Assembly (NCBI GenBank): GCA_016788885.1
Contig: JAEURX010000018.1
Coordinates: 62,001 to 126,000 of the forward strand
Source of the DNA: Nitrospira sp.
Lineage (GTDB): Bacteria; Nitrospirota; Nitrospiria; Nitrospirales; Nitrospiraceae
Reading direction: 5' to 3'
DNA length: 64,000 nucleotides
The stretch's first letter is position 1. Each line of letters begins with the position of its first letter. This document shows, piece by piece, positions 2,721-54,589 of the stretch. The translations under genes and the position numbers were made by a program. The notes below the pieces were generated by a model. The model was not told the origin of the DNA and ran no database searches. It saw only the letters and a list, made by a program, of their open reading frames with translations.

Positions 2721-2736
2721 CTGCCGACCAGTCGGC

Positions 2737-4772: not shown

Positions 4773-4799
4773 GGCCATGATGGCCCTTCCCTCTTGCTT
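4773..4799 (+). terminator. Hairpin between the small plus gene and cheW
   Basis: GGCCA-TGA-TGGCC forms a 5-bp stem that can be extended by GAAG/CTTC across a small bulge, followed on the plus strand by a pyrimidine-rich run (CTTCCCTCTTGCTT). It sits between convergent stop codons and may stop transcription from both sides. Confidence 0.4.
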
Positions 4800-5316: not shown

Positions 5317-5343
5317 GCTGGGCTCCTTCTCGTGGTTGGCTGC

Positions 5344-7029: not shown

Positions 7030-7081
7030 AACTCCTCCTCTTACCCTTTCATGCGTGAACGGTTGACTTGACGAGTTCCTC

Positions 7082-17932: not shown

Positions 17933-18760
17933 TTATCCTCGCAGCAGCGCTAACGCTTGCTGTGGCAACGAATTGGCCTGGGCCAAAATTGCGATGCCGG
18001 ATTGGGTGAGGATCTGGTTCTTCGTGAACACAGATGTTTCCTGAGCAATGTCCGCATCTCGAATCCGCGATTCGGCCGCGGTGAAGTTTTCGGCCGTAAC
18101 CGTCAGGTTCTGGATCGCGACTTCGAAGCGGCTCTGGATGGAACCGTAATTCGCGCGGGCGGTTGCCACCGCGCTGATCGCGCTGTCGATCTTGGAAAGC
18201 ATCGATTGCGCGGCTGTCGCCGTCGACACGCTTGCGCCGGTCAAGCCGACCGCCGCTACGTCGAGGTCATCCAAGGCCACGCTCAACGAGTTACCGGATC
18301 CACTCTTGAAGCCGATAAAGACCTCAAACGTGTTGCTGCTTCCGCTCAGAAGCGGCTGACCGTTGTATTCCGTCGTCGTCGAAATGCGATCGATTTCCGA
18401 CCGCAACGCGACAAATTCTTGATCGAGGTAAGAACGCTCGGTCGTTCCCAGCGTCCCGCTGGCCGACTGAGTTGCCAACTCACGCATACGAGACAGCAAG
18501 CTGCCGACCGTCGCCGCGGCACCGTCCGCGACCTGGGTCAAGCTGATGCCGTCACCGGCGTTGCGATTCGCCTGATTGATACTACGAATCTGGGCGCGCA
18601 ACGTTTCCGACACGCCCAATCCGGCCGCGTCATCCGCCGCTCGGGTGATTCGCAGACCAGATGACAACCGCTCAACGGATTTACCCAATTGAGCTTGGTT
18701 GGTCGCCAGGTTTCGCTGAGCTGCCAGTGATGCAACGTTGGTGTTGACTACTAATGCCAT
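17933..18760 (-). CDS. fliC: Flagellin
   Basis: The only flagellin in the window. The 275-residue protein consists almost wholly of the conserved D0/D1 ends: MALVVNTNVASLAAQRNL, then RLSSGLRI; and at the C-terminus ILTQSGIAILAQANSLPQQ. The central variable part (about 140-200) is short and Ser/Thr-rich, with GSSNTFEV and SGSGNSLSVALDD giving possible O-glycosylation sites. The gene has an AGGAGG Shine-Dalgarno, a sigma-28-type promoter and CsrA-type leader sites. The adjacent glycan operon most likely modifies this protein. Confidence 0.97.
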   Translation of the reverse strand: MALVVNTNVASLAAQRNLATNQAQLGKSVERLSSGLRITRAADDAAGLGVSETLRAQIRSINQANRNAGDGISLTQVADGAAATVGSLLSRMRELATQSASGTLGTTERSYLDQEFVALRSEIDRISTTTEYNGQPLLSGSSNTFEVFIGFKSGSGNSLSVALDDLDVAAVGLTGASVSTATAAQSMLSKIDSAISAVATARANYGSIQSRFEVAIQNLTVTAENFTAAESRIRDADIAQETSVFTKNQILTQSGIAILAQANSLPQQALALLRG

Positions 18761-24261: not shown

Positions 24262-27200
24262 GGTTCGGCACCAGGGGGCGTTCGGGTTCGGCGAGGTGTT
24301 TTGCCAACTCGTCCATGCCCTCGAACGTCGGGACTATGGCACGCAACCAGTCATATTCTCGCCGCGCATCTGCTCGACGTCCTGCTCTCAAGAGTACTCC
24401 GGCCAGGGCAAAACGCATAGCGATATTGCCTGGATTGCGGGCAAGAAATGAGGCGAGGCTCGACGCCAGGGCATCCCAGCGTTGGAGCATCGTGCCGCAT
24501 TTGAGCATCCAATGCATGCATTCTTCGTCATCGGGATGATCGGCACACAGATCTGCTACGTGAGACCAGGCGGCCTCAGCCCGATTGTCACCCATCGCCG
24601 CCATGACCAGGCCTAGCATGGCCTTCCGAGGATTCGCGCCGGATTGTTTCGCCCGTTCGAACGCCTGTTCCGCGTCGCGATAGGCATTGAGCTGCATGGC
24701 AAGAATGCCGCGCAGGAGCCACCCTTCCCCATGTGCCGGTTCTGTCTGCAGCAGCGCAGTCACATGATTATCCGCTTCTTTCATGGCGCCGGTTTCCAAT
24801 GCCTGTTTCGCCAAAGCCAATCGAGCCTGCGGATCATTTTTCAACTGAAGCACACGTCTCCAGATAGGAGAGGCCAGTTCTGGATGGCCGATACTTTCAC
24901 TGAGTGACGCCCCCCAGCGAAGAATCCAGACATCGTCAGGCCACTGGTCGACGTGCGAAAGCAACGCGACCATTTTTTGCTGATCCTTGCTCGCCGTCGC
25001 CCGCTGGAGGTCGGCGACGAGTGCCCGTTCCGCCCGAACCGCGGGATCGGTAATGAGGTACAGCGTGTACCCGAGGAGGCGCTCTTTGAGATGGGTATGC
25101 ACAGAATAGCCATCGTCGAAGTGCAACCGATCTTCGTCCGTCACCCACCAGCAACGGCCCCAGCGCTCCCGAAAACGGATGGTGTTCTCTTCGTCGTGTG
25201 TCTTCCGTCCGGGTGTACGGCTTTCCAAATGAATGACCGTGCTCTGAGGCTGGTAGACGATTTTCCAGTTCTTTTCACCCAGTTTGAGACACAGATCGAC
25301 GTCTTCGAATCCGTTCTTGTAGCCCTCATCGAATCCCCCGACCTGCGCGAATGCCTGCCGGCGGATGAGCATGCAGGCGGCGGTGACGCATTGCAGCTCG
25401 CGGCGGCGCGAGACAAAGGGCGCGTCTGCCGGAACTCCCGGATACATATGGTAGGGCATCAGGAACTCACGCGAGAATGCGACTCCCGCATGTTGAATCG
25501 TGCCGTCTTCATACAACAGTTTGCTTCCCACTACCGCCACATCGGAATGGGCCTGTACCTCGTCGACAAGGGCGCTGAGCCATCCAGCCTGCGGAATGGT
25601 ATCGTTGTTCAGGAACACGAGGTATTCACCTTTGGCCGCCCGAGCCCCTTGGTTGCAGGCTTTCGCAAATCCGAGGTTCTCGTCGTTGGTGATCACGGTG
25701 ACATCGCCACTCAGGCCGGCGAGAAACGCCGGAGTTCCGTCCGTCGAGTGGTTATCCACCAGGATGACTTCGTAGGAGACGCCGTGCGTGACCTCCGCCA
25801 GAGCCATCAAACATTGCGTGGTGAGGGCCAGGTTGTTCCATACGGGAATGATAATGGAGCAATCGAACGTCTTGGCTTGGGCGTCGGATCGCATGCCTTC
25901 CAATTTCTTTTGCTGCGCCTCCAGCACGCCGGCTATGCGATCCGTATACGGCCGGTATTTTCTATAGATGATTTCGGTCGTGCGTCGGTAGGTGTCGCTC
26001 GTGCTGCTGGTCATCGATGACCCATCGCGACGCCAAGTGAACGCCGCGGTGGTGTGCTTGATGTGGAGAAACGGATAGATCGTCGCCATCCGGATCCAGA
26101 GATCCCAATCTTCATGCGCGAACAGCGATTCGTCGAACATGCCAACCTGTTCGAGGCAGGCTTTTTCATGCATGACACAAAGCACCGGGAAATAGTTGCA
26201 CAACAGAAGATCGATACAGTTGAAGTCGTGCGAATACGGGATATCTCGTCCGGTCACCACGTATTGATCGCCCTGCCGTACTTCATGGATACGCCAGGCA
26301 TCCGTATAGGCGAACTTATGCTCGCCGCCTTGTAGGGCCGTGACCAGGGTGTGCAGATGGTCCGGGAGGTAGGTGTCATCGTCGTCGAGATAGGCAATAT
26401 AGATGCCTTTGGCTGCCCGAATTCCCGTATTGCGAGCCGCTGCCAGTCCACGGTTGTGATCGTGCCGGATCGTCGTGATACGACCGTTCTTATTGAGCGG
26501 GGCGATCACCTCGTTCACATCAACCGTACCGTCGTTGACGACGATGATCTCAAAATCCTGATACGTTTGGGCCAGCACACTATTGAGCGCGACCTGCAAT
26601 CGCTCAGGCCGATTGTATGTGGGCACGATGACGGAGACCATCGGCGGACGCGTAAACGAAAGCACGGGTGAGGCACCCCGACGCTGACAGGCCCATATCT
26701 GATAGATGGGTACGAGCGTCTGCTTGGCAAAATCGGCCGGGGTCGGCGCAGGGATATATCGCAGCGAGGGAATTTCGCAGTGCACCCGCTCCAGGCCGAG
26801 TTCAGAGAATCCTTGCGTCGTGAAGATGTCACGCAGTTGTGCTTCTGTGACCCAATCCTCAACCGGTTGACTGGGTGGCGCGATCGTTTTCCACTGTTCC
26901 CACATCTCTCCGCGGGGTGTCGTCAGAATGACATAGCCATCCGGCTTCAGGAGCATGCCCAATTCCGCGACAAATTCCTCTTTCCGGCCGTGCGGAATAT
27001 GTTCGATGACTTCGGAGCAGAGGATGACATCGTAGGGCGCAAAATCCGGTCGAGTGAGCACATTCTGAGCAACGCCCACTTCGAACCGTAAGTGCGGAAA
27101 CAACCGCCGCGCGTGCTCGATCACGCCAGCTACGGGCTCGATGCCTTCGCAGGTGCCATACGCCGTCGCCAAGTTCGTCAGCCAACCGCGCCCGCATCCG

Positions 27201-30200
27201 ACATCCAGGATGCGCAGTTGCCGGTCAGGATCCGCCTGACGCACGCGGCGAAGCAGATATTCCAGAAATGCAGCGATCTTGCTCCAACGCGCTGCTTCCT
27301 CATGGTTGGGGCCAGGAGAAGACCACCCCCGACTGTTGACGAACATGTCGATGTAAAATTGATCCTGCTGTTTCTGCTCTTGAGGCGTCGGCGCCGAATC
27401 CGGTAAGGCTCGACGGCCTGCCGAGGCTAGCGGTGCATGATTCAACCCGTCCATCACGACCCCTTTCGTTTCGACCTGTCGCCTTGAAGAGGGCGATGCT
27501 CCTAAGGATTCGGCTCGCGCCAAGAGATGGCGGAATTGTTCACGAAGCGCGTCACGGCGCTGCGCGATGAAAACCGGTGTGGCAAAGGAATGGGAGATCG
27601 GCCGGCCCTCGACCAATGCTTCCCAGGCCGTTAACACGGTCGTCCAATCATGCGATTGCGCCCAGTGCTCTCGACCAAGCCGACCGAGCTCCGCACAGAA
27701 CTCTGGATGCTGCTTGAGCAACCGTACGGCAGGGCCGAAGTGCGACAGAGGAAGCACCAGTCCGCCGGCGTGCTCAGTGGCTGTTCCACAATCCGGCGTG
27801 GCGAGCCATGGTCGGCCAGCGCTCATCGCCTCCAGCAGGCAGAGCGGCGAGACTTCCGCATGCGAGGCCAGCACCACGAGATCAGCTGCAGTCAACGCCG
27901 AGGCGACATCGGCGTAATCCAAGCCTGCAAGCAGCCGGACATCCGGTCGGGACGTCAGGCGGGCCTTCACGGCCTCGACGTACTCGATATCAGGCGTGTC
28001 ATTCCCGATCAAGACCAGTTGAACCCCTTGAGGAAGCTGCTCCAGTGCATCGAGCAACCCCAGATGATTTTTGACGGTGTAGAGATTGGCGAGGTGAATC
28101 ACCAGGAATGTCTCGCGGGCGATCCCGTATCTCTGTCTGAAATCCTCCTTGGGCGCGAGTGTCGCAGTGCCGTTCGGAATGACGCAGGTCGGAATGTTTC
28201 GTTCGCGAAAAAACTGTTCATCGTATCCCTTGCCGCCGAACGTGACGACGGCGTGCACCCGTTTCCCCAATTGGGACAACATGGCCCGCCCCTGCTCGCT
28301 CCCCTGCAACGATTCATCAATTTCTTTGTTGATCGTGGGTTGTAGAATGAATCGCGTGGGGCAATTCTTCGAAATTGCCAGGGGGGCATAAAACATCAGA
28401 TGCAGCGGGGCACCGAGCAGGATACAGGCTCCGTATTGCCCCGATTCAAGCAACCGCTTCACTTCCAGCAGGGAGTGGCGGCTGGTGGTTTCAAAATCGT
28501 CGGGGAAGGTGAGATCAATGATGGGAATGTCACGATGCGATTTCGCCTTGCGCACAGAGAGCGCATAGGTCGCGACTTCGACGGCATGCCCCCGAGATTT
28601 CAAGCCGATGGCGAGTGTCTCCGCCACTTTTTCCACACCGCCTACGGACGGCCAAAAATAGGGCGTGACGATGAGAATGCGCATCGCCGCATGCGTTTTC
28701 GACTGCGGCGATGCGGCAGGACTCACGAGTGTCCGCAGTGTCGACGTTTTCTCGACAGTCGTCTCCTTTTTCCAATGGACTTCCTCTGGCGTCAGAGGTC
28801 TATTCGTGACCGGGGTCGTGCTGCGGTTGGCATCATAGGGCTGGCTCACCGGCGGAGTGTGGCGGAACAGCCGTGAGAAGACGTCCAGTTCCTTCAGAGC
28901 ATAGTCTCGCGCATCTTTTTCACGGTCGACTGAGCGAGGCCCCTCGATAATCCCATGTGCAGCACCAAGCAGGGCAAACAGCGCCAGTTGATCTCCTGTC
29001 GCTCGAAACTGGTCTGCTTTTCGCCGGATGTCGGAGGTCAGGGTATTCCACTGACGGATGTCCTTTTCATACATCGTCTTATACCGACGGTAGATGGTCT
29101 CCGGTGTGTAGACAGTTCCGTGCCGGCCCAGGACCTCCGGATGCAGGATCCAGCGCACGCCGCGCTGACCCATCTGTTCGAGCAAATCCATCTCACTCGC
29201 CTTGACATTCTGGAAGGCGAAGGGCTTCATGGCCGCCGTGCGATAGATTTTGATGCCTTGAATCGGGCAGGCGCGATCCTCATCGAAGAGATGAAAACAG
29301 ATCATACCGACGTCGGCGGGCGCGCGCCGCATCGCGGTTTCCATCGTTGTGACGGCATCGGGATTGAGCATCATGTCTTCATCAACTTGGATGAAGTACT
29401 CGCTCCTGCAATCCGCGATCATTTTCTGAGCCGCTGCGCTGAACGGGGTGACGTTGCGGATGATCTCGACGCGAAACGGACCGCCCTGCTGGGCATCCAC
29501 TGCCGCCTTGCAGGCCGGATACGCCGGATCGTCGACCGTCAGCACATACACCGTGGTGGCCGGCGTTGATGGCAGCTCTCTCGTACCTGGTGCATGTTTC
29601 TGCAGGATCTCTTTCGCCCCCGCTGAGCCGTCCACTCCGGCTGCTGTGTCGGCCCCCTCGCGATTGAAACTGGGCACCTGCCCCGTCTGAATCCATGACA
29701 GCAGTTGCCATGCACGGTATTCCGAGGTATGCGATCGGAGCACTTCTGCCCGCGCTGCGCCGGCGAGTGCTTGTGCGTAGTCGGCATCATCCGCCACCCG
29801 AGCGAGATGGTCTGCCAGTACGGCTGGCTGGTCTTTGGGATACAACAAAATCTCCTGCCCATCCCGGAACAGGCTCTTGGTAAGCGGCCGGCCTTGAATC
29901 TCCCACGAAATTGCCGGCCGCCCTGCTGCCATCGCTTCCACCACACGCCCGGCATAGGCTTGAAAGAGACTCGGGAGATTGACGATCGCGCTCCAGCGTT
30001 TCAGACTTGTCAGCCAATTAACAAAGATCTCCTCCCTCAATTGGCGACACTGACCGACATATTCCGTCAACGCGACCTGATCTGGCCGCCCCCGCTGCAA
30101 CTGTCCGGCCATGCGCTGGTGTAAGAGATCGAACCGTGCAGGGAATTCCGTTCCGGTTTCGGCCGATGGAGGGTGGACCAGTCGATCTTTCAGGCGCGGA

Positions 30201-30784
30201 TGTTTCAGCCAGGTATTCCTCTCCCCATAGAGTTCTCCATAAAACGCCGCTTCACGGCGAACCGGTTGCGCGATGGTCGGTGTGACAAAACGAGCAGGCA
30301 CGGCCTGGAGCCAGAAAGTAGCGCGGGTGCGTCCCGCTTCGTTGAATGCCTCAGCATCCAACTCGTCCGCCGACAGGATATGCGTCATATATCTTGCCTG
30401 ACGCTCCACGAACTCCAGCCGTTCTCCTAAATGAGGCCAGCGGCGGCAGTCTTCCTCGCTATACCGCAGCGACTCCATGAGGACGCCGACTCGCACAGGG
30501 GCTAACCCGGCCACCCATTCCAGAAACCCCTCAGAATAGCGATTATGGACGAGCCAGACCCATACCTGGTCGAACTGTTGACCGGCGAGAAGCGACTTGG
30601 CGTGATACAGCCAAGACTGTGGGGACGTATCCGAGACATGGGCCAGTGCCGGGAGAGTCACACAGTCGCACCCATTGGCTCGAAGTCCGTCCTCGACGGC
30701 GAAATTGCCCACGTAGGACCAGGCTTTCGCTTGCGCCCACGTGTCAAACTCCAATTGCACCAGCAGAATTTTTGGCTGTGCCAT
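24251..30784 (-). CDS. Giant multi-domain glycosyltransferase with internal methyltransferase and TPR tail
   Basis: A single frame of 2177 residues from the ATG with GGAGA five bases upstream (a GTG six codons earlier is less likely). Domains by position: CgeB-like GT-B (about 1-370); GT-A-like domain with VDEDMM (about 410-640); GT4 (about 700-1070, PYFWPSVGGVEK, later EAMSAG); SAM methyltransferase (about 1155-1300, ILDVGCGRG); GT2 (about 1380-1590, VIVPTYNRPE and LDDDD); second GT2 (about 1640-1890, LNNDTIPQAG); TPR-like helices (about 1910-2160). It could build several linkages of one glycan on a single scaffold. No signal or membrane segment is seen, so it acts in the cytoplasm, consistent with flagellin modification before export. 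Confidence 0.88.
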   Translation of the reverse strand: MAQPKILLVQLEFDTWAQAKAWSYVGNFAVEDGLRANGCDCVTLPALAHVSDTSPQSWLYHAKSLLAGQQFDQVWVWLVHNRYSEGFLEWVAGLAPVRVGVLMESLRYSEEDCRRWPHLGERLEFVERQARYMTHILSADELDAEAFNEAGRTRATFWLQAVPARFVTPTIAQPVRREAAFYGELYGERNTWLKHPRLKDRLVHPPSAETGTEFPARFDLLHQRMAGQLQRGRPDQVALTEYVGQCRQLREEIFVNWLTSLKRWSAIVNLPSLFQAYAGRVVEAMAAGRPAISWEIQGRPLTKSLFRDGQEILLYPKDQPAVLADHLARVADDADYAQALAGAARAEVLRSHTSEYRAWQLLSWIQTGQVPSFNREGADTAAGVDGSAGAKEILQKHAPGTRELPSTPATTVYVLTVDDPAYPACKAAVDAQQGGPFRVEIIRNVTPFSAAAQKMIADCRSEYFIQVDEDMMLNPDAVTTMETAMRRAPADVGMICFHLFDEDRACPIQGIKIYRTAAMKPFAFQNVKASEMDLLEQMGQRGVRWILHPEVLGRHGTVYTPETIYRRYKTMYEKDIRQWNTLTSDIRRKADQFRATGDQLALFALLGAAHGIIEGPRSVDREKDARDYALKELDVFSRLFRHTPPVSQPYDANRSTTPVTNRPLTPEEVHWKKETTVEKTSTLRTLVSPAASPQSKTHAAMRILIVTPYFWPSVGGVEKVAETLAIGLKSRGHAVEVATYALSVRKAKSHRDIPIIDLTFPDDFETTSRHSLLEVKRLLESGQYGACILLGAPLHLMFYAPLAISKNCPTRFILQPTINKEIDESLQGSEQGRAMLSQLGKRVHAVVTFGGKGYDEQFFRERNIPTCVIPNGTATLAPKEDFRQRYGIARETFLVIHLANLYTVKNHLGLLDALEQLPQGVQLVLIGNDTPDIEYVEAVKARLTSRPDVRLLAGLDYADVASALTAADLVVLASHAEVSPLCLLEAMSAGRPWLATPDCGTATEHAGGLVLPLSHFGPAVRLLKQHPEFCAELGRLGREHWAQSHDWTTVLTAWEALVEGRPISHSFATPVFIAQRRDALREQFRHLLARAESLGASPSSRRQVETKGVVMDGLNHAPLASAGRRALPDSAPTPQEQKQQDQFYIDMFVNSRGWSSPGPNHEEAARWSKIAAFLEYLLRRVRQADPDRQLRILDVGCGRGWLTNLATAYGTCEGIEPVAGVIEHARRLFPHLRFEVGVAQNVLTRPDFAPYDVILCSEVIEHIPHGRKEEFVAELGMLLKPDGYVILTTPRGEMWEQWKTIAPPSQPVEDWVTEAQLRDIFTTQGFSELGLERVHCEIPSLRYIPAPTPADFAKQTLVPIYQIWACQRRGASPVLSFTRPPMVSVIVPTYNRPERLQVALNSVLAQTYQDFEIIVVNDGTVDVNEVIAPLNKNGRITTIRHDHNRGLAAARNTGIRAAKGIYIAYLDDDDTYLPDHLHTLVTALQGGEHKFAYTDAWRIHEVRQGDQYVVTGRDIPYSHDFNCIDLLLCNYFPVLCVMHEKACLEQVGMFDESLFAHEDWDLWIRMATIYPFLHIKHTTAAFTWRRDGSSMTSSTSDTYRRTTEIIYRKYRPYTDRIAGVLEAQQKKLEGMRSDAQAKTFDCSIIIPVWNNLALTTQCLMALAEVTHGVSYEVILVDNHSTDGTPAFLAGLSGDVTVITNDENLGFAKACNQGARAAKGEYLVFLNNDTIPQAGWLSALVDEVQAHSDVAVVGSKLLYEDGTIQHAGVAFSREFLMPYHMYPGVPADAPFVSRRRELQCVTAACMLIRRQAFAQVGGFDEGYKNGFEDVDLCLKLGEKNWKIVYQPQSTVIHLESRTPGRKTHDEENTIRFRERWGRCWWVTDEDRLHFDDGYSVHTHLKERLLGYTLYLITDPAVRAERALVADLQRATASKDQQKMVALLSHVDQWPDDVWILRWGASLSESIGHPELASPIWRRVLQLKNDPQARLALAKQALETGAMKEADNHVTALLQTEPAHGEGWLLRGILAMQLNAYRDAEQAFERAKQSGANPRKAMLGLVMAAMGDNRAEAAWSHVADLCADHPDDEECMHWMLKCGTMLQRWDALASSLASFLARNPGNIAMRFALAGVLLRAGRRADARREYDWLRAIVPTFEGMDELAKHLAEPERPLVPNHAA

Positions 30785-30808
30785 GAACTCTCCGTCTCTC
30801 ACATCACC

Positions 30809-32698
30809 TTAGGCCGCCATTTTTTGGCGTAGCCGTACCACCATCTGGTCGAATTCAACGAGCGCCGGATCCGGAAGAAGCTGTGGCCGACAGGCATCGT
30901 AATAGGACACTGCCGCGTGGTAGGCCCCTTGCTCACAAAGCCCCACCAAACGCTCCATGAATGCACGCACCTCACCTTGGGCATTGTGACGGACCTCCGC
31001 CTCGACCGATCCTCCCCTAGCAAGACCCGGAGAAGTCAGTGCCACCGGCGCCTCGCCCACCACTTCTTCGGTCTCCAGCGGGACCATCACGCCCTTCTCT
31101 TTTGTAACCGGCACATTGAGCCGGACGCGCTTAGAGCAGTGCGCACACCCTGCCACGACTTGTAGTCCATGCACAGGAACACGCTTCGGCTCTGTCAACT
31201 CCACATAGGAGAAACCACGAAGGCAATGCGGGCACTCTGCGAAAAGCTCCCAGAACTGCCGGGTTCCATTCAGCGTCATGGGATTGGTGATCGCTCGAAT
31301 CAGAATCCGGCTGACATCTACGGTGCGACAGAGCGACAAGGCTTCGAGGGCATGGATGGACCGCACATACCCAACCCACTGCGCATCGGTCATGGTGGTC
31401 ATATTGAATAGTTTTTGATCGATCGTTTTGTAAAACGCTTCCTTATCAGGGATCAGCCCTTTCTCTTGGCACGCGACGTACAATGTACTGCCGGGGTAGG
31501 GTTGGATCGCTGCCAGATAGCAATGGATATCGGCGCAATACTTTCGGTAGAACGTGAGCGTTTCCGAGATCGTTTCCGGAGTTTCTGCCGGGTCGCCAAA
31601 AATAAAATTCCCGCCGAACCCAATTCCCACTTGGTCCGCCAGGGCGATCGCCTCGGCATACTGTTCAGGCTGCGTACCCTTTTTCATGCTCTTGAGTACT
31701 CGCTGACTCGCGCTTTCCATGCCATAGCTAAAGTAGGTACACCCAGCCTGCTGAGCCAATTGCAACGCCTCTAGATTGAGTCTGGCGTTTGCGTGCGTTT
31801 GAAACTGCCAATCGAAATCCCACCCGTATCGCTCACGGTATTCGATTAGCGTACGGCAGAACTCATCCAGTTTCTGCTTGTTGACGGCAAAGAGTTCGTC
31901 GAGAACCATGAGAATGTTGAACGAATGCGATTCATACAGTTGCTTAATTTCCGCCATGACATTTTCAGTCGTTCGGGCGCGGTATTTGGCGCGTCCCCCA
32001 TGCCCATGCAAGCAGAAGGTGCAGGCGAATGGACATTCTCTCGCCGTCACAATCGGCATAATTCGGGGATTGTTACGGGTGTAGCGAAACAGTGGTCTGG
32101 CACCCCATGAGGAATCCAACATCTTTTCAATGTCGAAAATCGTATAGTCCGGAAACGGCTGCTCGTTCAGATCGCCTCCGAACTTGAGATTCTTTTCTGT
32201 AAACACCAGGCGACCATTGTTCGGATAGCAGAGATTAGGAATGGCGTTGAGGTCACCGCGCCCCTGCAGTGCATTCAAGAGCATGACTGCCGTCTCTTCG
32301 GCTTCGCCTGCCAGCGAATAATCCGGCTTGAGCGTGGAATGAATAAACTCCTGGTCGTAGGTGATGATGGAGCCCCCCATGAGCACCGGAACGGTCGGCG
32401 CGTAATGGCGGATGATGCTCATCGCGTCTTGCAAAAACGGATAGTCAGTGCAAATTCCCCCTACGCCGATCATGTCCGGCTTGGTTTCGGCAATGGCCTG
32501 CGCAATTCTGTCGTGGATCATGTCGAATGCCGAGGCATAGCCTGGTGCATTGTTGGGGTTGCAGCCAAACACCTGATGTCCCGCCGCTTTCAACGCCGCG
32601 GCGATGTAGGCAAATCCACAGGAGAAATCAGACGCCGCCAGAAATGAAGGATATTGCGTTGTGTATCGGTAAGTGGGGGGAATCAGTAACACCTTCAT
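30809..32698 (-). CDS. B12-binding-type radical SAM protein with C-terminal zinc-knuckle
   Basis: A 629-residue protein. A cobalamin-binding-type N-terminal domain (about 1-150; GVGGICTDYPFLQ, VLMGG) precedes the radical SAM core with the 4Fe-4S ligands C222, C226 and C229 (CPFACTFC). A later section has paired C489/C492 and C518/C521 (CPHC, CAHC) suggestive of a small zinc ribbon, and the last 70 residues are helical. Such enzymes methylate or rearrange unactivated carbons. Lying directly upstream of the giant glycosyltransferase, it probably modifies a sugar or the glycosylated protein. Substrate unknown. Start chosen by AAGGAGG seven bases upstream. Confidence 0.88.
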   Translation of the reverse strand: MKVLLIPPTYRYTTQYPSFLAASDFSCGFAYIAAALKAAGHQVFGCNPNNAPGYASAFDMIHDRIAQAIAETKPDMIGVGGICTDYPFLQDAMSIIRHYAPTVPVLMGGSIITYDQEFIHSTLKPDYSLAGEAEETAVMLLNALQGRGDLNAIPNLCYPNNGRLVFTEKNLKFGGDLNEQPFPDYTIFDIEKMLDSSWGARPLFRYTRNNPRIMPIVTARECPFACTFCLHGHGGRAKYRARTTENVMAEIKQLYESHSFNILMVLDELFAVNKQKLDEFCRTLIEYRERYGWDFDWQFQTHANARLNLEALQLAQQAGCTYFSYGMESASQRVLKSMKKGTQPEQYAEAIALADQVGIGFGGNFIFGDPAETPETISETLTFYRKYCADIHCYLAAIQPYPGSTLYVACQEKGLIPDKEAFYKTIDQKLFNMTTMTDAQWVGYVRSIHALEALSLCRTVDVSRILIRAITNPMTLNGTRQFWELFAECPHCLRGFSYVELTEPKRVPVHGLQVVAGCAHCSKRVRLNVPVTKEKGVMVPLETEEVVGEAPVALTSPGLARGGSVEAEVRHNAQGEVRAFMERLVGLCEQGAYHAAVSYYDACRPQLLPDPALVEFDQMVVRLRQKMAA

Positions 32699-32767: not shown

Positions 32768-34303
32768 TCACAGCGTGCGGGACGCGCAGGCTGCCGGAGC
32801 AGATGGTCGACGAATTAACTTGCGTGCCGTCATCGCTTGCACGTGTTGAACTGTCCCTTCATCGAATCGCTCCGCCAACATGGCTCGGTATTCCGGCCGA
32901 TCGAAATACGCCTGGAATGCCTTATCGCGGAAGGCGAGCACCTCCGTTGCCGGGAGATGGCGCGTCGGGAGCGGGAGTGAATCGATGGCATGTTGAGAAT
33001 ATGCCGTCCACGAGTCAGGCAATGGCCATCCCTCGTCCAAGGCGCGTTGGTACAGGGAAGAACCGGGGTACGCCATAGTGCAATAAAAGTTGGCGAACTC
33101 GCAGTTCAGATCGATAGCCAAATCGAGAGTGGCCTGCATCGTCTCATAGTCGTCTTCCGGCAAACCAAAGATGTAATTGGCGATGACATTGATGCCGGCC
33201 GCTCGTACTTTGTGAATTGTCCGTCCAATTTGATCTTGTTCGAACGTTTTCAATACATCGTTTCGCACCTTCGCACTGCCGGACTCGATGCCGAAACAGA
33301 GCCACCGGACGCCGGCACGGACCAGTAGGTCCTCCATGCCGTCCTTCACCGAATCGACCCGGGCATAGGCCCAAATGTTCAGATCGTATCGGCGCTCGAT
33401 CAGGAGCTGACACAGTTCGGCCACATGCCGTCGATTGAGCACAAACATTTCATCAGCAAACTTGATGTTGCGGATCCCGTATTGTATGACCAGTCGATCG
33501 ATGTCGGCCACGATCGTCGCCGGTGACCAAAACCGGTAGCTGTTGACTTCCGTGCGATACCCGAGGGCCGCCTCCCCGCTCTTGAATGGCGCTTGAATAC
33601 AACAGTACGAACAATGATACGGACAGCCCAGAGTGGTGTAGAGCGAGGCATAGGGGCTGCGTCGGTCGAGGGATCCGAAGCAGTGCCAATTGTGGGCGCG
33701 ATACCGATTCATCGGCAGGAGATCCCATGCCAATCCAGGCATCTCTTCGTCTAAGCGTTCGATATTCGGCGCCGGATCTGATTTGAGAATTGCGCTGTCG
33801 CTTCGGTAATACAATCCCCGTACTCGACTCCACTCGCTGGAGCCACCTTTCAAGGCAGCGATCAAGTCGGTGATCGTGTACAGCCCCTCTCCACCGCAAA
33901 CAAAATCAGCGTCCTCTTCGCGCAAGGTGCGTTCCGGAAGCGCTGCAACATGCCCCCCCAACAGCAAGACCTTACTCACAAGACCGTGTGTTTTGATGGC
34001 TCGGCAGATTGCTCCGGCCGACGGCATGATCTGCGTCGAAGCGGAAGGATTGTGTCCGTAGACCAGGACCACCACGAGGCGAGGCGCAAGCGTCTCCACT
34101 CGAGTAGCCACCTCCGTGGGCAGTAGGTCTTCCGCATTGGCGTCGAGAACTTCTACTGTAATCCCCCGACGACGCAGGAATGTGGCGATGAGTCCTCCCC
34201 ATACGGGAGGCTCAATTGCGCTCAGGCTGCTCCCGAGCTCCTGATATATCTGTGTCCGACTTCCGGGATTCACCAAAAGCACATCGAGGACGGGCTGTGA
34301 CAT
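32768..34303 (-). CDS. B12-binding-type radical SAM protein
   Basis: A 511-residue protein with a cobalamin-binding-type N-terminal domain (about 5-150; VLLVNPGSR, LLLGGHVAALPE) and a radical SAM core with C227, C231 and C234 (CPYHCSYC). The TIM-barrel motif FGIESGSAKVR and the C-terminal YPGSSLY segment are typical of class B enzymes. It differs in sequence from the neighbouring radical SAM protein and lacks its Cys knuckles. GGAGG precedes the ATG by nine bases. It is placed between the split transketolase and the other radical SAM gene, so it probably acts on the same sugar pathway. Confidence 0.88.
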   Translation of the reverse strand: MSQPVLDVLLVNPGSRTQIYQELGSSLSAIEPPVWGGLIATFLRRRGITVEVLDANAEDLLPTEVATRVETLAPRLVVVLVYGHNPSASTQIMPSAGAICRAIKTHGLVSKVLLLGGHVAALPERTLREEDADFVCGGEGLYTITDLIAALKGGSSEWSRVRGLYYRSDSAILKSDPAPNIERLDEEMPGLAWDLLPMNRYRAHNWHCFGSLDRRSPYASLYTTLGCPYHCSYCCIQAPFKSGEAALGYRTEVNSYRFWSPATIVADIDRLVIQYGIRNIKFADEMFVLNRRHVAELCQLLIERRYDLNIWAYARVDSVKDGMEDLLVRAGVRWLCFGIESGSAKVRNDVLKTFEQDQIGRTIHKVRAAGINVIANYIFGLPEDDYETMQATLDLAIDLNCEFANFYCTMAYPGSSLYQRALDEGWPLPDSWTAYSQHAIDSLPLPTRHLPATEVLAFRDKAFQAYFDRPEYRAMLAERFDEGTVQHVQAMTARKLIRRPSAPAACASRTL

Positions 34304-34317: not shown

Positions 34318-35334
34318 TTAGTAGGCGGCGCCGTGTGGCGCCATATGGGTCGAGACTGGCTGCACGCCCTTGGCCTTCTCATGGTCTCCACGCACCCAAC
34401 CGGCAATACGTGAGACGACAGCGCCGACATCCAGGCCATATTTTTCCCAAATCGCCTGGCGCCCGCCGTAATCAAAAACGAATCGATCGTCCTGTCCGAT
34501 TCGCATCGTCGGAATGTGTCTATCCTCATCGATCATCCATTCGGCGACGAGGCTGCCCAAGCCACCAGCCAGCAAATGCTCCTCAAGGGTTACGACGCGG
34601 GCAACATTCTTCAAGTACTGCTTCAAGGCATGGCCATTGAGCGGCTTCAACCGGAACACGTCGATCACTCCCACGTTCAGGCCCGCACTCTCGTGCAGGA
34701 GATCGGCTGCCGCCAACGCCTGATGCACCATCACGCCGGATGTCAGGATGCAGACGTCATCTCCTGACCGCAGCTGTGTCAGTCCCTGCGCGATCTCAAT
34801 ACGGCGTCCCGCGTACACTTCTGGGAGGCCGGCGCGATCAAAGCGGATGTATTGAGGCGATCGGTCGTGATGCACTACCGAGGCGAGCTCGGCTGCGCTA
34901 GTCCCGTCGGCCATGCTGTAGATCTTCAGGTTGGGAAGGGCACGCATGATGGAGACATCCTCCACCGTGTGATGGCTCGGCCCCATAATGTCGTAGGCAT
35001 ACCCGGCCCCCACGCCGATCAGGACGATCGGAAGATTCATGGCGCATACGTCCAATTTGACCTGTTCGTAGCAACGCAAGCTGACGAATGGGGCGATGGC
35101 ATAGACGTACACTTTCTTTCCCTCGAAGGCCATGCCGCAGGCCATGCCGATCAATTGTTGCTCCGCGATCCCGACGTTGAAGAACCGATCGGGAAAGTCG
35201 CGGGCGAACTGATCGAGCGTGGGTGCCCCGTTATCGGCCGTGATGAAAATCGCCTGGGGGTCTTCTTGGAACAACTTATACAATTCGTTGAAGAACTGAT
35301 CCCGCATACCTAATATGAACTTGGTCGATCCCAT
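34318..35334 (-). CDS. Split transketolase, C-terminal (pyrimidine-binding) subunit
   Basis: A 338-residue protein corresponding to the Pyr and C-terminal domains of transketolase. The catalytic Glu is in NVGIAEQQLIGMACG; a His-rich loop IMGPSHHTVEDVS and a terminal domain starting ILTSGVMVHQAL follow. It must pair with the TPP-binding half encoded immediately upstream. The enzyme transfers a two-carbon ketol group, and could supply sedoheptulose 7-phosphate for heptose or add a two-carbon branch to a keto sugar. Its place in the glycan operon shows it is not simply the housekeeping enzyme. Confidence 0.88.
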   Translation of the reverse strand: MGSTKFILGMRDQFFNELYKLFQEDPQAIFITADNGAPTLDQFARDFPDRFFNVGIAEQQLIGMACGMAFEGKKVYVYAIAPFVSLRCYEQVKLDVCAMNLPIVLIGVGAGYAYDIMGPSHHTVEDVSIMRALPNLKIYSMADGTSAAELASVVHHDRSPQYIRFDRAGLPEVYAGRRIEIAQGLTQLRSGDDVCILTSGVMVHQALAAADLLHESAGLNVGVIDVFRLKPLNGHALKQYLKNVARVVTLEEHLLAGGLGSLVAEWMIDEDRHIPTMRIGQDDRFVFDYGGRQAIWEKYGLDVGAVVSRIAGWVRGDHEKAKGVQPVSTHMAPHGAAY

Positions 35335-35405
35335 GGATGCTTCCTTTCGTCATCGACGAGGTTGTCGTAGGGCTGTCCGCCCATGGCGTTCGGATGGTCT
35401 GGGGG

Positions 35406-36293
35406 TCACTTATTATTGATGTCGTGTCTGGTCAATTCGAGATCCGCCCCTTCCGGCACCCGGTAATGCCACAAGCGCTTTCCCTCCATGAGCGACGCCC
35501 CATGCCCCTTCTGGGTGTTGGCAATGATCATCAATGGTTTCTTGCGTTTCGGCGAGCGCACATCGCGAAACGCCTCGAAGATCTCAGCGAAAGAATGGCC
35601 GTCGATCACGCGAGTCTCGAACCCGAACGCCTTGAATTTTTTATCGAGTGGATTGAGACGCGGGTTGTCGGAGGCCAGCCGTCGGTCGGCAGGGTCCGTG
35701 GGACCAAGCACGCCCTGTCCGTTCCGGTCTACAATGCAGACCAGATTCCGGTAGCCGCGATGCCCGGCATAGATGGCCGCTTCCCAATTGGAGCCCTCGA
35801 ATAATTCGGCGTCTCCGAGGAAGCAGACCACCATGTGTTCCTCTCGGTTGATCAGGGCCGCTTCGGCCATCCCCGTCGCGATCGGAAGCCCATGACCCAG
35901 GGAGCCGGTGATGACTTCGATTCCCGGGATGTTCCATTCGGCATGGACGCCAAGGAGATTTCCAACACCGGCAAAATTCTCCAGTTCGGACAACGGGAAA
36001 TACCCCAGGTCCGCCAGAATCGGATACAAGCCGATTCCACCCTGCCCCTTACTGAGGATGAACCGGTCTCGCCCGTTCCATTTGGGATTCTGCGCATCAA
36101 ATCGCAGGAGGCCGCCGTAATACAGTGCAACCAACAGTTCGGTCTGCGAATATGCTGTACTGATGTGACCGCTGTGCGCCTTGACCGCCATCTCCAGGAC
36201 CGTCGAGCGAACCCATTGCGCCTTCCGTCGCAACCGAACTTCCATGTCCGAAGATTTGGCCTGCGAACCCGATGTGAGTTGTGCTGTTTTCAT
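35406..36293 (-). CDS. Split transketolase, N-terminal (TPP-binding) subunit
   Basis: A 295-residue protein with the transketolase PP domain: GHISTAYSQTELLVALYYGG, a TPP/Mg motif starting GDAELFEGSNWEAA and ending near VDRNGQG. The start is chosen for a strong GGAGG six bases before this ATG; an upstream in-frame codon would overlap the nucleotidyltransferase gene. It forms a complete enzyme with the following C-terminal subunit gene. Confidence 0.88.
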   Translation of the reverse strand: MKTAQLTSGSQAKSSDMEVRLRRKAQWVRSTVLEMAVKAHSGHISTAYSQTELLVALYYGGLLRFDAQNPKWNGRDRFILSKGQGGIGLYPILADLGYFPLSELENFAGVGNLLGVHAEWNIPGIEVITGSLGHGLPIATGMAEAALINREEHMVVCFLGDAELFEGSNWEAAIYAGHRGYRNLVCIVDRNGQGVLGPTDPADRRLASDNPRLNPLDKKFKAFGFETRVIDGHSFAEIFEAFRDVRSPKRKKPLMIIANTQKGHGASLMEGKRLWHYRVPEGADLELTRHDINNK

Positions 36294-36303
36294 TGATGTC
36301 CTC

Positions 36304-37038
36304 CTAAAGTTTCTGCAACGATCCACATAGGCCCATCCTGTGTGTAAACACCGCCAGCCGTTCAGGAGTTCCGATATCGAACAGCGGGCTGGCGGTCACA
36401 AATCCATACAGTGACTCCGAAACTAACCGCGGAATGAACTCTCGCTCGAGCGACCACACGTGAGTCTCCGGGAACAGTGTCTCAACGGACTGCTCAAACA
36501 CATACACACCCGCATTGAAATAGCCTCGTGTGCCCCGCCCAGGTTTCTCCACCATCGACAAGACCCGGTCGTCGCGTCCCAGCACGACGTTTCCCGCATC
36601 ACATCGGTCATCGGGAATTGTCACGACCATTGTGCCCTGCGTCCGTTTCATCACATGAAACCGCAAAAGTCTTGCAGGATCGACGTCGCAGAACGAATCA
36701 CCGTTGACAACGAACATCCGTTGACTGCGCGCCACACTAAACGCCTGGGCCAAGGCTCCCCCGGTTCCCAGCGGCTGAGGATCTCGTACAAACGAGGCTT
36801 GATAGAGACCCCCTTCTGCCCGAACCCACGATTCGATCTGATCGCCCATGTATCCCGTGCTGAAAATGAACCGACGCGCCCCATGTCGAACCCAATGTTC
36901 GAGGAGGAACGACAGGAATGGTCTGCCGTGGATGTCCGCCATTGATTTCGGACGATCCGCCACGACGGATTGCAGACGACTGCCGAGGCCGCCACAGAGA
37001 ATGATCACATCACAATCCTCAACACGGCTCATCGTCAC
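36304..37038 (-). CDS. Sugar-phosphate nucleotidyltransferase, HddC-like
   Basis: A 244-residue NTP-transferase with the signature IILCGGLGSRLQSVVADRPK near the N-terminus, a metal-binding GDSFCDVD segment (about 115) and VEKPGRG. It resembles HddC (GDP-D-glycero-alpha-D-manno-heptose guanylyltransferase) and RmlA-like enzymes. The HddA-like kinase gene directly upstream supports a heptose-1-phosphate substrate; the nucleotide specificity is not evident. A GTG start overlaps the kinase stop; ATG two codons later is the alternative. Confidence 0.8.
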   Translation of the reverse strand: MTMSRVEDCDVIILCGGLGSRLQSVVADRPKSMADIHGRPFLSFLLEHWVRHGARRFIFSTGYMGDQIESWVRAEGGLYQASFVRDPQPLGTGGALAQAFSVARSQRMFVVNGDSFCDVDPARLLRFHVMKRTQGTMVVTIPDDRCDAGNVVLGRDDRVLSMVEKPGRGTRGYFNAGVYVFEQSVETLFPETHVWSLEREFIPRLVSESLYGFVTASPLFDIGTPERLAVFTHRMGLCGSLQKL

Positions 37039-38105
37039 GCTGCCTTTCCGATAAGCGCGGATTTGAGTTGCGTGGCGGTCTGTGCCGAGCTTTGTGCCCA
37101 GACATCGTCCAACATGAGTTGATCTTCCTGATAGAACACGATCTGTGTGCCCAGACCTTCAAACTTGAAAGGCACTTGTAAGAGCCCCGGGAGGGCCAAT
37201 CGAATACGCTCATGGTCTTGGGGCCTGGCAAAGAACAACATGAACCCACCCCCTCCGGCTCCGAGCAGCTTCCCGCCGAGTGCGCCCGCTTCCCTTGCCG
37301 CCGTGTAGATCTCGTCGATGGCCGGAGTGGTAATGCGCGAGGTCAACCGTCGTTTGAGCATCCAGGCCTCGTGCAGCATGGTGCCGAAGTCGGCGATGTC
37401 GCGATCACCGGTGAGGATCGCAATGCCCTCCTCCACCATCTGCAACATGGCCGAGAGTTCGACTTGCCGATGTTTCGTGCGATCGATCTGCTCGCGGGCC
37501 ACTTCGGAAGCGATCCGCGAAAACCCCGTGAAGTACAGTTGCAGGTGGCTTTGGAACGACGCCAGGCGCTCTGGACGCATGATGATCGGGGTATGTCCGA
37601 TGTCCCCGTTCTGGGAAAACGTGGCCTTGCATAGCCCGCCATGAGCCGCCAGGACCTGGTCTTGGCAGCCGACGGCTTCACCCAACACATCCTGCTCGAC
37701 ATGAATCGCGGCCTGCGCTAACTGGGCCTTGCTAGGCATAATGTGCTGCAAGGCATACAGGGTATGCAGCAACCCCACGGTGAAGGAGGAACTGGAACCC
37801 AACCCGGTTCGCGCCGGCAAATCACCGTCGTGATGAATTTCCAACCCGTCGTCGATATTGAGGTACTTGAGCACGCCGCGCACCGCCGGATGTTCGATCT
37901 CTTGATTGTTGTTCACGAGTTCGATGCGCGAATAGGCAATGCGGGTGCGATGTTCAAAGAACGGCGGCAACTGCCGGCAGCTGATGTAGCAATATTTGTC
38001 GATGGTCGTCGCGAGCACCGCTCCGCCATGTTCGCGGAACCAGACAGGATAATCAGTGCCGCCACCGAAAAAGGAGATACGGAATGGCGTTCGGCTGATG
38101 ATCAT
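37035..38105 (-). CDS. GHMP-family sugar kinase, HddA-like
   Basis: A 356-residue GHMP kinase. Motif 1 is RTPFRISFFGGGTDYP, motif 2 (ATP loop) is LPARTGLGSSSSFTVGLLH (about residue 100-118) and motif 3 is LLGAGGGGFMLFF. The FGGGTD start is characteristic of D-glycero-D-manno-heptose 7-phosphate kinase (HddA) and relatives. It would phosphorylate C1 of a heptose 7-phosphate before nucleotide transfer by the next gene product. GmhA and GmhB partners are not in this window. Confidence 0.83.
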   Translation of the reverse strand: MIISRTPFRISFFGGGTDYPVWFREHGGAVLATTIDKYCYISCRQLPPFFEHRTRIAYSRIELVNNNQEIEHPAVRGVLKYLNIDDGLEIHHDGDLPARTGLGSSSSFTVGLLHTLYALQHIMPSKAQLAQAAIHVEQDVLGEAVGCQDQVLAAHGGLCKATFSQNGDIGHTPIIMRPERLASFQSHLQLYFTGFSRIASEVAREQIDRTKHRQVELSAMLQMVEEGIAILTGDRDIADFGTMLHEAWMLKRRLTSRITTPAIDEIYTAAREAGALGGKLLGAGGGGFMLFFARPQDHERIRLALPGLLQVPFKFEGLGTQIVFYQEDQLMLDDVWAQSSAQTATQLKSALIGKAA

Positions 38106-38135: not shown

Positions 38136-39083
38136 TCACACATTGGCGTATTGCCCCGCTTTGACGACGGTGTAGCACTTGATCAGCTCGCGAATGCCCC
38201 GCTCCAGCGACCATTCCGGCTTAAACCCGGTGTGCAGCAGTCGTTGATTCGAGACGATGTAGTCGCGTTTGTCGGGGTCTTCGCCGATGGGCGCCTCGAA
38301 TGACACGAACTGCGGGAGCACGCGCTGGATTTCCCGGCAGAGCTCCAACTTCGAGAGATTGGCGTCGTCCAATCCGACGTTGTATGGCCGGTCTTTCATC
38401 TCCTCGAAATGATCGATCGCATGCAGGAAGGTGCGCACGACATCGCGAATATGGATGTAGTTCCGCTTGCAATGGCCTTCAAACACGACCACTGCTCGAT
38501 CGTGCACGGCTCGCCAGACAAAATCGTTGACCAGCAAATCCATGCGCATCCTCGGCGACACGCCGAACACGGTCGCCAGTCGCAGTGTAATGGCGTTGCC
38601 GCGATCCAACACGACACGCTCCGCCTTGACCTTTGTTTCGCCGTACAGGCTGATAGGGCGAAGCGGCGAATCTTCGGTACACGGCACGCCGGGTTGGCCG
38701 ATGCCATACCCGCTGTTGGTGACGGGAAAGATAATCCGCTGGCGAGGCGACGAGAGTTTGCAGAGCAGCTGGACGGCTTCGAAATTTACCGTATAGGCCC
38801 CTACCCGGTCTCTGTCGCACAGAGGTGCTCCGACTAAAGCGGCGAGCGGAATGATGAGGTCGGCCTTGCGCAGCAGGTCTGTCAGCAGCCGTTCATCTCG
38901 GCAGTCGCCTCGCACGACCTGAAACTGCTCTTCGGCGCAACAGTCCATCAAGCTGTTTTGCCGGTAGAGGAAATTGTCGAGGACGGTGACCGCATAACCC
39001 CGGTCGAGCAGTTGTCTGGTCAGTACGGAGCCGAGGTATCCGGCTCCACCGGTGATGAGGACTTGTGTTGAACCTGTCGTCAT
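38136..39083 (-). CDS. NAD-dependent sugar epimerase/dehydratase (extended SDR)
   Basis: A 315-residue extended short-chain dehydrogenase. The Rossmann motif GGAGYLGS is near residue 12, and the catalytic Y-x-x-x-K is LYGETKVKAE (about residue 145). It modifies a nucleotide sugar, by epimerisation, dehydration or reduction. The ATG at 39083 is preferred because the longer form would run inside the preceding gene. It lies between the sugar dehydratase-like PLP enzyme and the kinase. Confidence 0.83.
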   Translation of the reverse strand: MTTGSTQVLITGGAGYLGSVLTRQLLDRGYAVTVLDNFLYRQNSLMDCCAEEQFQVVRGDCRDERLLTDLLRKADLIIPLAALVGAPLCDRDRVGAYTVNFEAVQLLCKLSSPRQRIIFPVTNSGYGIGQPGVPCTEDSPLRPISLYGETKVKAERVVLDRGNAITLRLATVFGVSPRMRMDLLVNDFVWRAVHDRAVVVFEGHCKRNYIHIRDVVRTFLHAIDHFEEMKDRPYNVGLDDANLSKLELCREIQRVLPQFVSFEAPIGEDPDKRDYIVSNQRLLHTGFKPEWSLERGIRELIKCYTVVKAGQYANV

Positions 39084-39129: not shown

Positions 39130-40323
39130 TCATGCAGCTTCCAGGACGATCCGGGAAATATGCAGAACATCCTGGTCGGTCATCGAGGCGTGGTTCGGCA
39201 GAAAAAATCCGCAGTGATGGACCCGGTCCGCCACGGGAAAACTGGCCTTCCCGTAACGATTCATCCAGAACGGGTGCAGGCCCAGATTGCCGGCCGAGAA
39301 AATTCTCGTTTCCACGCCCTCGGCGACCAGTGCCCGGACGATGCGTTTGCGTTGATCAGAGGAATCGGCGAGCAGGCCGAACGAAATACTTGCGACTTTG
39401 CTGTGCTGAGGGGGACGTTGTGTGTAAAACCGCTTCCCCAATTGTTCGAGGTACCGATTGTGATTGGCCTGTCGCCGCCCTGTCATCCAATCGAGCTTGC
39501 GCAGCTGTTCGATGCCGAGAAAGGCATTGAGATCCGTCGAACGGAGGTTAAATCCCGGCTCGTAAAAGACAAAGGGTGAGTGAAAGTCGTCGATCTGGTA
39601 TTCGTCGACCAGTTCCTGATGCCGTGCGGACGGCACGTCCTTGCTCCATCCGTGGCTGCGAAGCATCAGCAGGAGATCGGCAAACTGTCGGTCGCTGCAC
39701 GACACCATGCCGCCCTCGATCGTGGACATCTGGTGGCCGAAGTAGAAGGAGAAACTGGCCATGTCGCCGAAGGTGCCGACTTTCTTGCCTTCATATTCGG
39801 CGCCGATCGCCGCACAGGCGTCTTCGAGAAGATAAAACCCATAACGATCTTTCAAGGTTTGCAATTCGCGCATGCGATGGGGAACGCCCAGGACCTGCAC
39901 CAGCAGGACGGTCTGCGCCTGGTGCCGCTTCAGCAGGTCTTCAAGATGATTCAGGTCGAGTCCGAAGGTGTCCGGGTCTGCCTCGCACATCAACGGCGTG
40001 AAGCCGAATTGCATGGCCGGGGCAATCGACGTCACCCACCCGACGCTGGGAACGACAACCTGTGTATTTCGCAGTTTTCCTGAACGCAGCAAGGCGTAAT
40101 ACATGAGCAAGTTGGCGGATGAGCCGGAATTGCAATGTACGGCATAGGGGCGCCCCAACCACTCGGCCCATTGCCGCTCAAAATCCAACGTGAGCGCCCC
40201 CTTGGTGAGGCGTGGATAGGTTTTCAGCCAGTCGATCAACCGGTCGATGTCCTGACGGTCGATCGTGTCCTGCGCAAGGCTCCATCGTGGATTCAACTTG
40301 GCACTCTGGGCATGAAGCGTCAT
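39130..40323 (-). CDS. DegT/RfbH-family PLP enzyme with His in place of the catalytic Lys
   Basis: A 397-residue fold-type I PLP protein of the DegT/DnrJ/EryC1 family. Cofactor contacts are visible in NSGSSANLLMYYAL (about 65-78) and ED at 167-168. Where sugar aminotransferases have the Schiff-base Lys in an S-F-x-x-x-K pattern, this protein reads SFYFGHQMSTIEGG with His197. His at this site characterises the PMP-dependent 3-dehydratases RfbH (E1) and ColD that make 3-deoxy sugars. It is therefore more likely a C-3 dehydratase than an aminotransferase. It is the first gene of the glycan operon. Confidence 0.85.
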   Translation of the reverse strand: MTLHAQSAKLNPRWSLAQDTIDRQDIDRLIDWLKTYPRLTKGALTLDFERQWAEWLGRPYAVHCNSGSSANLLMYYALLRSGKLRNTQVVVPSVGWVTSIAPAMQFGFTPLMCEADPDTFGLDLNHLEDLLKRHQAQTVLLVQVLGVPHRMRELQTLKDRYGFYLLEDACAAIGAEYEGKKVGTFGDMASFSFYFGHQMSTIEGGMVSCSDRQFADLLLMLRSHGWSKDVPSARHQELVDEYQIDDFHSPFVFYEPGFNLRSTDLNAFLGIEQLRKLDWMTGRRQANHNRYLEQLGKRFYTQRPPQHSKVASISFGLLADSSDQRKRIVRALVAEGVETRIFSAGNLGLHPFWMNRYGKASFPVADRVHHCGFFLPNHASMTDQDVLHISRIVLEAA

Positions 40324-40518
40324 GGTGATCGTCCCCTCCGCGTCAAATCAGGCTCAGCCTCGTCACAGGACGAGGGGTGACATGAGGAGACTAATCAAGA
40401 TGCATGCCATCCCCCGGAGCGGGCGGCACATGCGAAAACAGGGGTGTTTCAGGAGTTCAGAGGAGATCGGCAGAGAAGGCCGGGCAAAAAATTCCCAGTC
40501 GCTGGAAGCCGCTGCAGT

Positions 40519-54573: not shown

Positions 54574-54589
54574 AGCAATGCACATGCCA
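54574..54589 (-). promoter_or_regulatory. Putative sigma-54 (RpoN) promoter of the flgF operon
   Basis: Minus strand TGGCATG, 4 bases, TTGCT. GG (-24) and GC (-12) are separated by the required ten bases; only one base differs from TGGCACG-N4-TTGCW. Predicted leader about 30 bases. Class II rod genes under sigma-54 are usual in polar flagellates. Confidence 0.65.

Follow-up and report, generated by a model that had tools for sequence, protein, structure and literature searches.

The window, a stretch of 64,000 nucleotides from a Nitrospira sp. genome, carries a tightly packed series of genes on its minus strand that ends toward the genes for flagellin and FliD. The first gene of the run, here termed DEH (39130 to 40323), is predicted from Pfam, alignment, tree and model to encode a 397-residue, DegT-fold nucleotide-sugar C3-dehydratase of the histidine-type, PMP-dependent kind; it starts at an ATG with GGAGGGG a few bases ahead. 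Behind it, on the same strand, lie a predicted Cj1427-type NAD-dependent GDP-heptose C4-dehydrogenase, EPI (38136 to 39083; the open reading frame reaches 39170, and we take Met30 of the frame as the start), an HddA-like GHMP kinase of the D-glycero-D-manno-heptose 7-phosphate 1-kinase type (37035 to 38105) and a nucleotidyltransferase resembling HddC and mannose-1-phosphate guanylyltransferase (36304 to 37038). The fourth and fifth genes downstream of DEH encode the N-terminal, ThDP-binding chain (35406 to 36326) and the C-terminal, pyrimidine-binding chain (34318 to 35334) of a split transketolase. Two B12-binding radical SAM proteins recognized by domain search (32768 to 34303 and 30809 to 32698) may methylate the sugar or deoxygenate it further. 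The remaining minus-strand genes encode a 2183-residue multidomain protein with GT1- and GT2-type glycosyltransferase and methyltransferase domains (24251 to 30802), a family 9 glycosyltransferase (heptosyltransferase family; 23068 to 24261), a glycosyltransferase-like protein (21254 to 23104), a second family 9 glycosyltransferase (heptosyltransferase family; 19581 to 21257) and flagellin (17933 to 18760), by its position a possible sugar acceptor. FlgK, FliW and an FlgL-like protein, the last so named by sequence only, are encoded on the opposite side of the operon.

A copy of TGGCAY-N5-TTGA, which we take to be a sigma-54-like -24/-12 element, lies on the minus strand 71 to 86 bases before the DEH start (40394 to 40409). 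The pattern, written after the copy in the window had been seen, occurs upstream of 22 of the 29 Nitrospira dehydratase genes, at 72 to 101 bases, and those 22 are its only matches on either strand in about 564 kb of the 29 loci. One further match is found in the window (54574 to 54589), with 0.16 expected by chance. Scans for sigma-70 promoters and terminators gave results no better than shuffled sequences.

DEH matched the Pfam family PF01041 (DegT/DnrJ/EryC1) with 240.8 bits, which places it in the DegT kind of aminotransferase fold. Its AlphaFold model (pLDDT 93.4) is nearest to ColD (Z 49.6, 2.1 Å over 373 residues), which also ranked first in Foldseek. Alignment with RfbH, ColD and aminotransferases, a check named beforehand in the preliminary description, put a histidine and not a lysine at the catalytic position: His197 (codon 39733 to 39735, minus strand, counted from the DEH start) replaces the Schiff-base lysine and shares the column of the catalytic histidine of ColD (2gms) and E1 (3bcx), the other aligned DegT proteins having lysine. 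The preliminary description had likened this substitution to that in RfbH (E1) and ColD. A search found 72 loci, three of which (L069 to L071) encode DegT proteins with the lysine and were dropped; the histidine is present in all 69 remaining relatives, whose record titles span about ten phylum-level groups, and lysine is present in the best DegT match of all 40 control loci, so His197 is not a chance replacement. Four other full-length DegT paralogues in the same genome each have the lysine.

The four-cysteine [2Fe-2S] motif of E1 is absent from DEH in the alignment; its five cysteines are scattered (positions 64, 113, 170, 209 and 371), and a CxC..C cluster motif was found in none of the 75 DegT proteins aligned, of which 67 belong to the His type. 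No reductase gene was found among the operon genes scanned, and the three FAD_binding_6 matches in the genome are all on other contigs. In a 43-row tree, midpoint-rooted and with long-branch warnings, so that its grouping alone counts, the DEH family is united in a single clade (100/100) on a long branch, next to the ColD clade and apart from RfbH/E1 and the Lys-type proteins. DEH itself falls outside the ColD clade and so does not group as a ColD orthologue. The preliminary description had seen neither a Cys-rich cluster motif nor an adjacent reductase gene and had favored a ColD-like route, with which the model, the missing cluster cysteines and the distance from RfbH in the tree agree.

By far the best reading of sequence and model is that DEH would be not a standard aminotransferase but a PMP-dependent C3-dehydratase of the ColD type, free of cluster and reductase; that it is a C3-dehydratase at all is very probable. 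The label of DegT aminotransferase, to which the preliminary description had objected, would then be wrong. Two other assignments were rejected, a plain aminotransferase on the missing lysine, and the E1/RfbH type on the missing cysteines, the separate clade and the lack of any RfbH match at 1e-100 across the genome. The closest relatives of the genome by the DEH gene are Nitrospira; the gene was found in 27 of 29 genomes of the genus, and the distant His-type plasmid relatives that we viewed are annotated as aminotransferases, so mislabeling is probably widespread.

EPI is 54.5% identical to Cj1427 (6vo6; 169 of 310 columns), both having the TNSGYG and Y...K motifs, and its model fits 6vo8, Cj1427 with NADH and GDP-D-glycero-D-mannoheptose, with a Foldseek rmsd of 1.3 Å; the next listed protein is 26% identical. 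TNSGYG recurs in 63 and Y...K in all of 64 EPI relatives. 4,6-Dehydratases have a T-x-E type motif where EPI has TNS, and a 4,6-dehydratase was rejected for EPI on this motif and because Cj1427 matches it far better. The nearest solved structures of the kinase (3k85, 127 bits) and the nucleotidyltransferase (6jq8/5xhw, about 126 bits) are HddA- and HddC-type proteins, respectively. Scores against the family models are under the cut-offs: 118.9 bits for the kinase against the NCBIfam HddA model (cut-off 600), and 103 and 116.9 bits for the nucleotidyltransferase against the HddC and mannose-1-phosphate guanylyltransferase models (cut-offs 300 and 440). GmhA and GmhB are not encoded in the operon; their matches in the genome fall just under the cut-offs (192 versus 209 and 143 versus 150 bits), and a GmhA gene near the dehydratase was seen in just 3 of 69 loci, compared with 1 of 40 controls.

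Recurrence of the partners was computed over the 69 dehydratase loci, from many phyla, and the 40 controls, from one phylum, which are Lys-type DegT loci, hand-picked and not random, with dehydratase orthologues and RfbH-type rows left out; near-identical loci in the counts are not independent. Identity thresholds were at least 45% for the Cj1427-type gene, 40% for the kinase and 35% for the radical SAM protein. Loci count as long from 15 kb of DNA upward (47 dehydratase and 29 control loci; 22 and 11 are shorter). The Cj1427-type gene is present in 46/47 long dehydratase loci and 0/29 long controls (64/69 and 0/40 at all lengths), the HddA-type kinase in 42/47 and 0/29 (54/69 and 0/40), and relatives of the first radical SAM protein in 33/47 and 0/29 (40/69 and 0/40). 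A ThDP enzyme was found in 44/47 long dehydratase loci and 1/29 long controls (55/69 and 1/40 at all lengths), using queries taken from these same dehydratase loci and hence biased toward finding ThDP genes there; the three long loci in which none was found are L056, L058 and L063. Among the 22 long loci outside the genus Nitrospira, hand-listed from record titles, 19 keep a ThDP gene. The preliminary description mentioned neither the split transketolase nor the ThDP enzymes of the relatives, and gave no strand.

The split transketolase matches the Carboxydothermus split enzyme (6yak, 169 bits, for the N chain; 6yaj, 188 bits, for the C chain), and its two chains have the ThDP-binding residues and the catalytic Glu. 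The N chain (35406 to 36326) reads GDA, not GDG, in the ThDP motif, and Gln replaces the His of SKGH. In the C chain the classical EDGxSHQ motif has become IMGPSHH, with the catalytic Glu kept. The Asp of this motif contacts the transketolase substrate, and it is missing from 8 of 10 linked C chains, that of the window included (the exceptions are L049 and L062). The genome also has two further transketolase/DXS-like ORFs, each about 650 residues long, so the split enzyme looks dedicated; a housekeeping role was rejected for it on account of these ORFs and of the swapping of partners.

The swap is seen directly among closely related Nitrospira operons, where the stretch after the nucleotidyltransferase gene encodes the split transketolase in the window, L001, L035 and L016, and E1-alpha/beta in L020, L021, L023, L057, L064 and L067. 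Most of the remaining operons in this group have, in that stretch, an aminotransferase and an ALS-type enzyme flanking the radical SAM gene. Over the 40 labelled rows of the dehydratase tree, at least 11 switches occur between kinds of ThDP enzyme (transketolase, E1-alpha/beta or acetolactate-synthase type), and strongly supported branches alone force 5 changes per ThDP kind; this tree covers 41 of the 69 loci and the window, with L054 and L065, which have two kinds each, left unlabelled, and ThDP-bearing loci outside it include L036, L040, L048, L055, L061 and L068. In 14 of 27 E1-bearing loci, 200 bases or fewer separate the E1-type gene from the dehydratase gene. The simplest account of the swapping is one acceptor that receives different donors. 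A fucose-synthase-like SDR gene, lacking from the window, sits directly behind the dehydratase gene in several relatives (L016 to L024 and others) and nearby in 25 of 69 loci; its product could reduce the branch ketone.

We take the ALS-like partners to belong to the DC superfamily and E1-alpha/beta to alpha-KADH2, an assignment drawn in part from a review. According to that review, ketone acceptors are known for only three of the nine ThDP superfamilies, DC, TK and alpha-KADH2 (PMC12247030), and the three partner kinds match these three. Branching by ThDP enzymes at C4 of a 4-keto sugar has been described for YerE, and AviB1/B2, Pau11/12 and split transketolases have been proposed to branch keto sugars as well (PMC12247030, PMC4753412, PMC4425429, PMC10338323). 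The review lists 13 further candidate transketolases, all from Streptomycetes, and treats the branching role of transketolases as a proposal (PMC12247030).

From these partners we infer the activities, the substrate, the branching step and the flagellin target of the following route. EPI (38136 to 39083) would oxidize C4 of a GDP-heptose. In ColD, the C4 ketone condenses with PMP to a Schiff base; once the histidine has taken a proton, the C3 hydroxyl departs, and after hydrolysis of the enamine PMP is restored by glutamate (PMC8987622). On DEH, likewise, PMP and the C4 ketone would condense to a Schiff base and His197 would remove a proton from PMP; loss of the C3 hydroxyl and hydrolysis would then give GDP-3-deoxy-4-keto-heptose and ammonia, with glutamate restoring PMP. 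The split transketolase (34318 to 36326), acting as a ThDP carboligase, would attach a two-carbon branch to that ketone and so yield a C4-branched 3-deoxy-heptose, which the glycosyltransferases between operon and flagellin gene may transfer to flagellin. We assign a probability of roughly 55% to the reading that DEH is a ColD-type C3-dehydratase, in a clade of its own, acting on GDP-4-keto-heptose, and that a ThDP carboligase then branches C4. Taken singly, a 4-keto-heptose is the probable substrate of DEH; the gene context leans toward an action of the ThDP enzyme on the DEH product; and flagellin, judged by gene position, is a tentative target at slightly below even odds.

It is also conceivable, if unlikely, that DEH acts on GDP-4-keto-heptose and that the ThDP genes have nothing to do with its product, the transketolase supplying sedoheptulose 7-phosphate or another precursor and C4 being later reduced or left as it is. 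Transketolase makes sedoheptulose 7-phosphate. This compound is the root of the heptose route (PMC10680097), and heptose modification in Campylobacter is described, in the accessible part of the source, without any ThDP step (PMC10440746). However, sister genomes have E1-alpha/beta or ALS-type enzymes instead, neither of which would be expected to make sedoheptulose 7-phosphate, the genome already has the two transketolase/DXS-like ORFs of about 650 residues, and the loss of the EDGxSHQ Asp from 8 of 10 linked C chains, the window's among them, argues against a precursor role.

Somewhat more doubtful is an ordinary ColD-like DEH that takes GDP-4-keto-6-deoxymannose from a GMD (GDP-mannose 4,6-dehydratase) encoded elsewhere, for a colitose-like sugar. 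The fold and the active-site histidine are those of ColD, and three GMD genes score over the cut-off elsewhere in the genome, one of them on the same contig about 54 kb away. Moreover, 4 of 5 distant His-type relatives that we viewed (L091, L092, L094 and L145, but not L093) adjoin gmd and another SDR gene. Against this, a long branch with full support keeps DEH out of the ColD clade, the operon genes scanned include no gmd and no ColC-like or fucose-synthase-like gene, and the Cj1427-type gene recurs in 46 of 47 long loci whereas a GMD-like 4,6-dehydratase gene is near the dehydratase in only 10 of 47 (1 of 29 controls; a TSE/SSE motif is present in 9 of the 10 clustered copies). Those ten loci mean that some relatives may use 6-deoxy substrates. 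For the window, GDP-4-keto-6-deoxy-mannose, the substrate named in the preliminary description, is probably wrong, the operon having no GMD gene but Cj1427-type, HddA-like and HddC-like genes; the enzyme type given there, a ColD-like C3-dehydratase, stands, and its substrate gives way to one that suits the heptose partners, which recur in 46/47 (Cj1427-type) and 42/47 (HddA-type) long loci.

An E1/RfbH-like, electron-requiring DEH served by a general ferredoxin/flavodoxin reductase encoded elsewhere is very improbable: the NCBIfam RfbH model matches at 194.5 bits, SpnQ may draw on general reductases (PMC8987622) and three FAD_binding_6 proteins are encoded elsewhere in the genome, but the score is far under the cut-off of 423 bits, the family lacks the cluster cysteines, RfbH forms a separate clade and the genome has no RfbH match at 1e-100. 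Just as improbable is a sugar aminotransferase in which another residue has assumed the role of the lysine, as the DegT fold and the aminotransferase activity of SpnQ in the absence of its reductase might suggest, since position 197 is His and not Lys in 69 of 69 relatives and ColD and E1 showed no such activity under like conditions (PMC8987622).

The wider find is what appears from the sequences to be a heptose 3-deoxygenation module with exchangeable ThDP partners, scattered over many phyla. It may reflect a widespread, unrecognized pathway in which a further His-type clade makes GDP-3-deoxy-4-keto-heptose and three kinds of ThDP enzyme swap to add different C4 branches, giving branched 3-deoxy-heptoses on the flagella and envelopes of Nitrospira, Elusimicrobia, Patescibacteria and others; this extension is more tentative than the reading of the window and, in our estimate, falls short of an even chance. 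In literature mostly outside subscription papers, we found no account that puts a C3-dehydratase for heptoses together with a ThDP enzyme, and no branched sugar of the proposed kind from Nitrospira. DEH would be a source in nature of a nucleotide sugar for which we found reports only from in vitro enzyme mixes (PMC10680097). The operon also offers a compact case for the question, raised in PMC12247030 around candidates from Streptomycetes, of whether split transketolases transfer carbon to keto sugars; sister species keep the dehydratase and exchange the ThDP enzyme, so the donor preferences of these enzymes could be compared with the acceptor held constant.

Among known 3-dehydratases, ColD (GDP-4-keto-6-deoxy-D-mannose 3-dehydratase; 2gms, and 3b8x for the H188N variant) is like DEH in fold, catalytic histidine and lack of a [2Fe-2S] motif, with about 28% identity in the structural alignment. 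The two differ in clade and in partners, which are GMD and ColC for ColD and, for DEH, a heptose C4-dehydrogenase and heptose-activation-like genes, with a ThDP enzyme near. E1/RfbH (CDP-6-deoxy-4-hexulose 3-dehydrase; 3bcx) shares the fold and the catalytic histidine; unlike DEH it has cluster cysteines and needs a reductase, and it belongs to another clade. Two distant relatives show other contexts. In L093, an Azospirillum ramasamyi plasmid, a His-type DegT gene that groups with ColD lies directly behind an E1-alpha/beta ThDP pair (1811 to 5164), so the pairing of dehydratase and ThDP enzyme reaches beyond the DEH clade. In L145, the Synechococcus phage ACG-2014f, positions 4050 to 7167 hold gmd, an epimerase/dehydratase gene and a "hypothetical" protein that is His-type 3-dehydratase-like and 34% identical to DEH.

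The ALS-like, E1-like and split-transketolase kinds found beside DEH and its relatives are also those of yersiniose (YerE), avilamycin and paulomycin (AviB1/B2, Pau11/12) and miharamycin and amipurimycin (split transketolase), none of which, in the accessible accounts, involves branching on a heptose as proposed here. Similar in proposed chemistry is the C3-dehydratase of Campylobacter jejuni HS:5/HS:11, a PLP/glutamate enzyme that acts on a GDP-4-keto-heptose, as DEH is proposed to do, by a ColD-type reaction on GDP-4-keto-6-deoxyheptose (PMC10440746). That enzyme works after a 4,6-dehydratase and is 62 to 67% identical to two characterized enzymes of E. coli and Yersinia (PMC10440746), a description that sets it apart from the clade of the window, which is far from ColD and paired with a C4-dehydrogenase. 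Cj1427 in Campylobacter feeds epimerases and reductases (PMC10680097), whereas EPI is encoded alongside a C3-dehydratase and a ThDP enzyme. In vitro, the HS:5 C3-dehydratase and Cj1427 together gave GDP-D-glycero-3-deoxy-4-keto-heptose, for which m/z 616.08 was reported, and the heptoses derived from it appear under a heading that calls them novel (PMC10680097). By analogy, the operon in the window seems to combine these two steps in nature.
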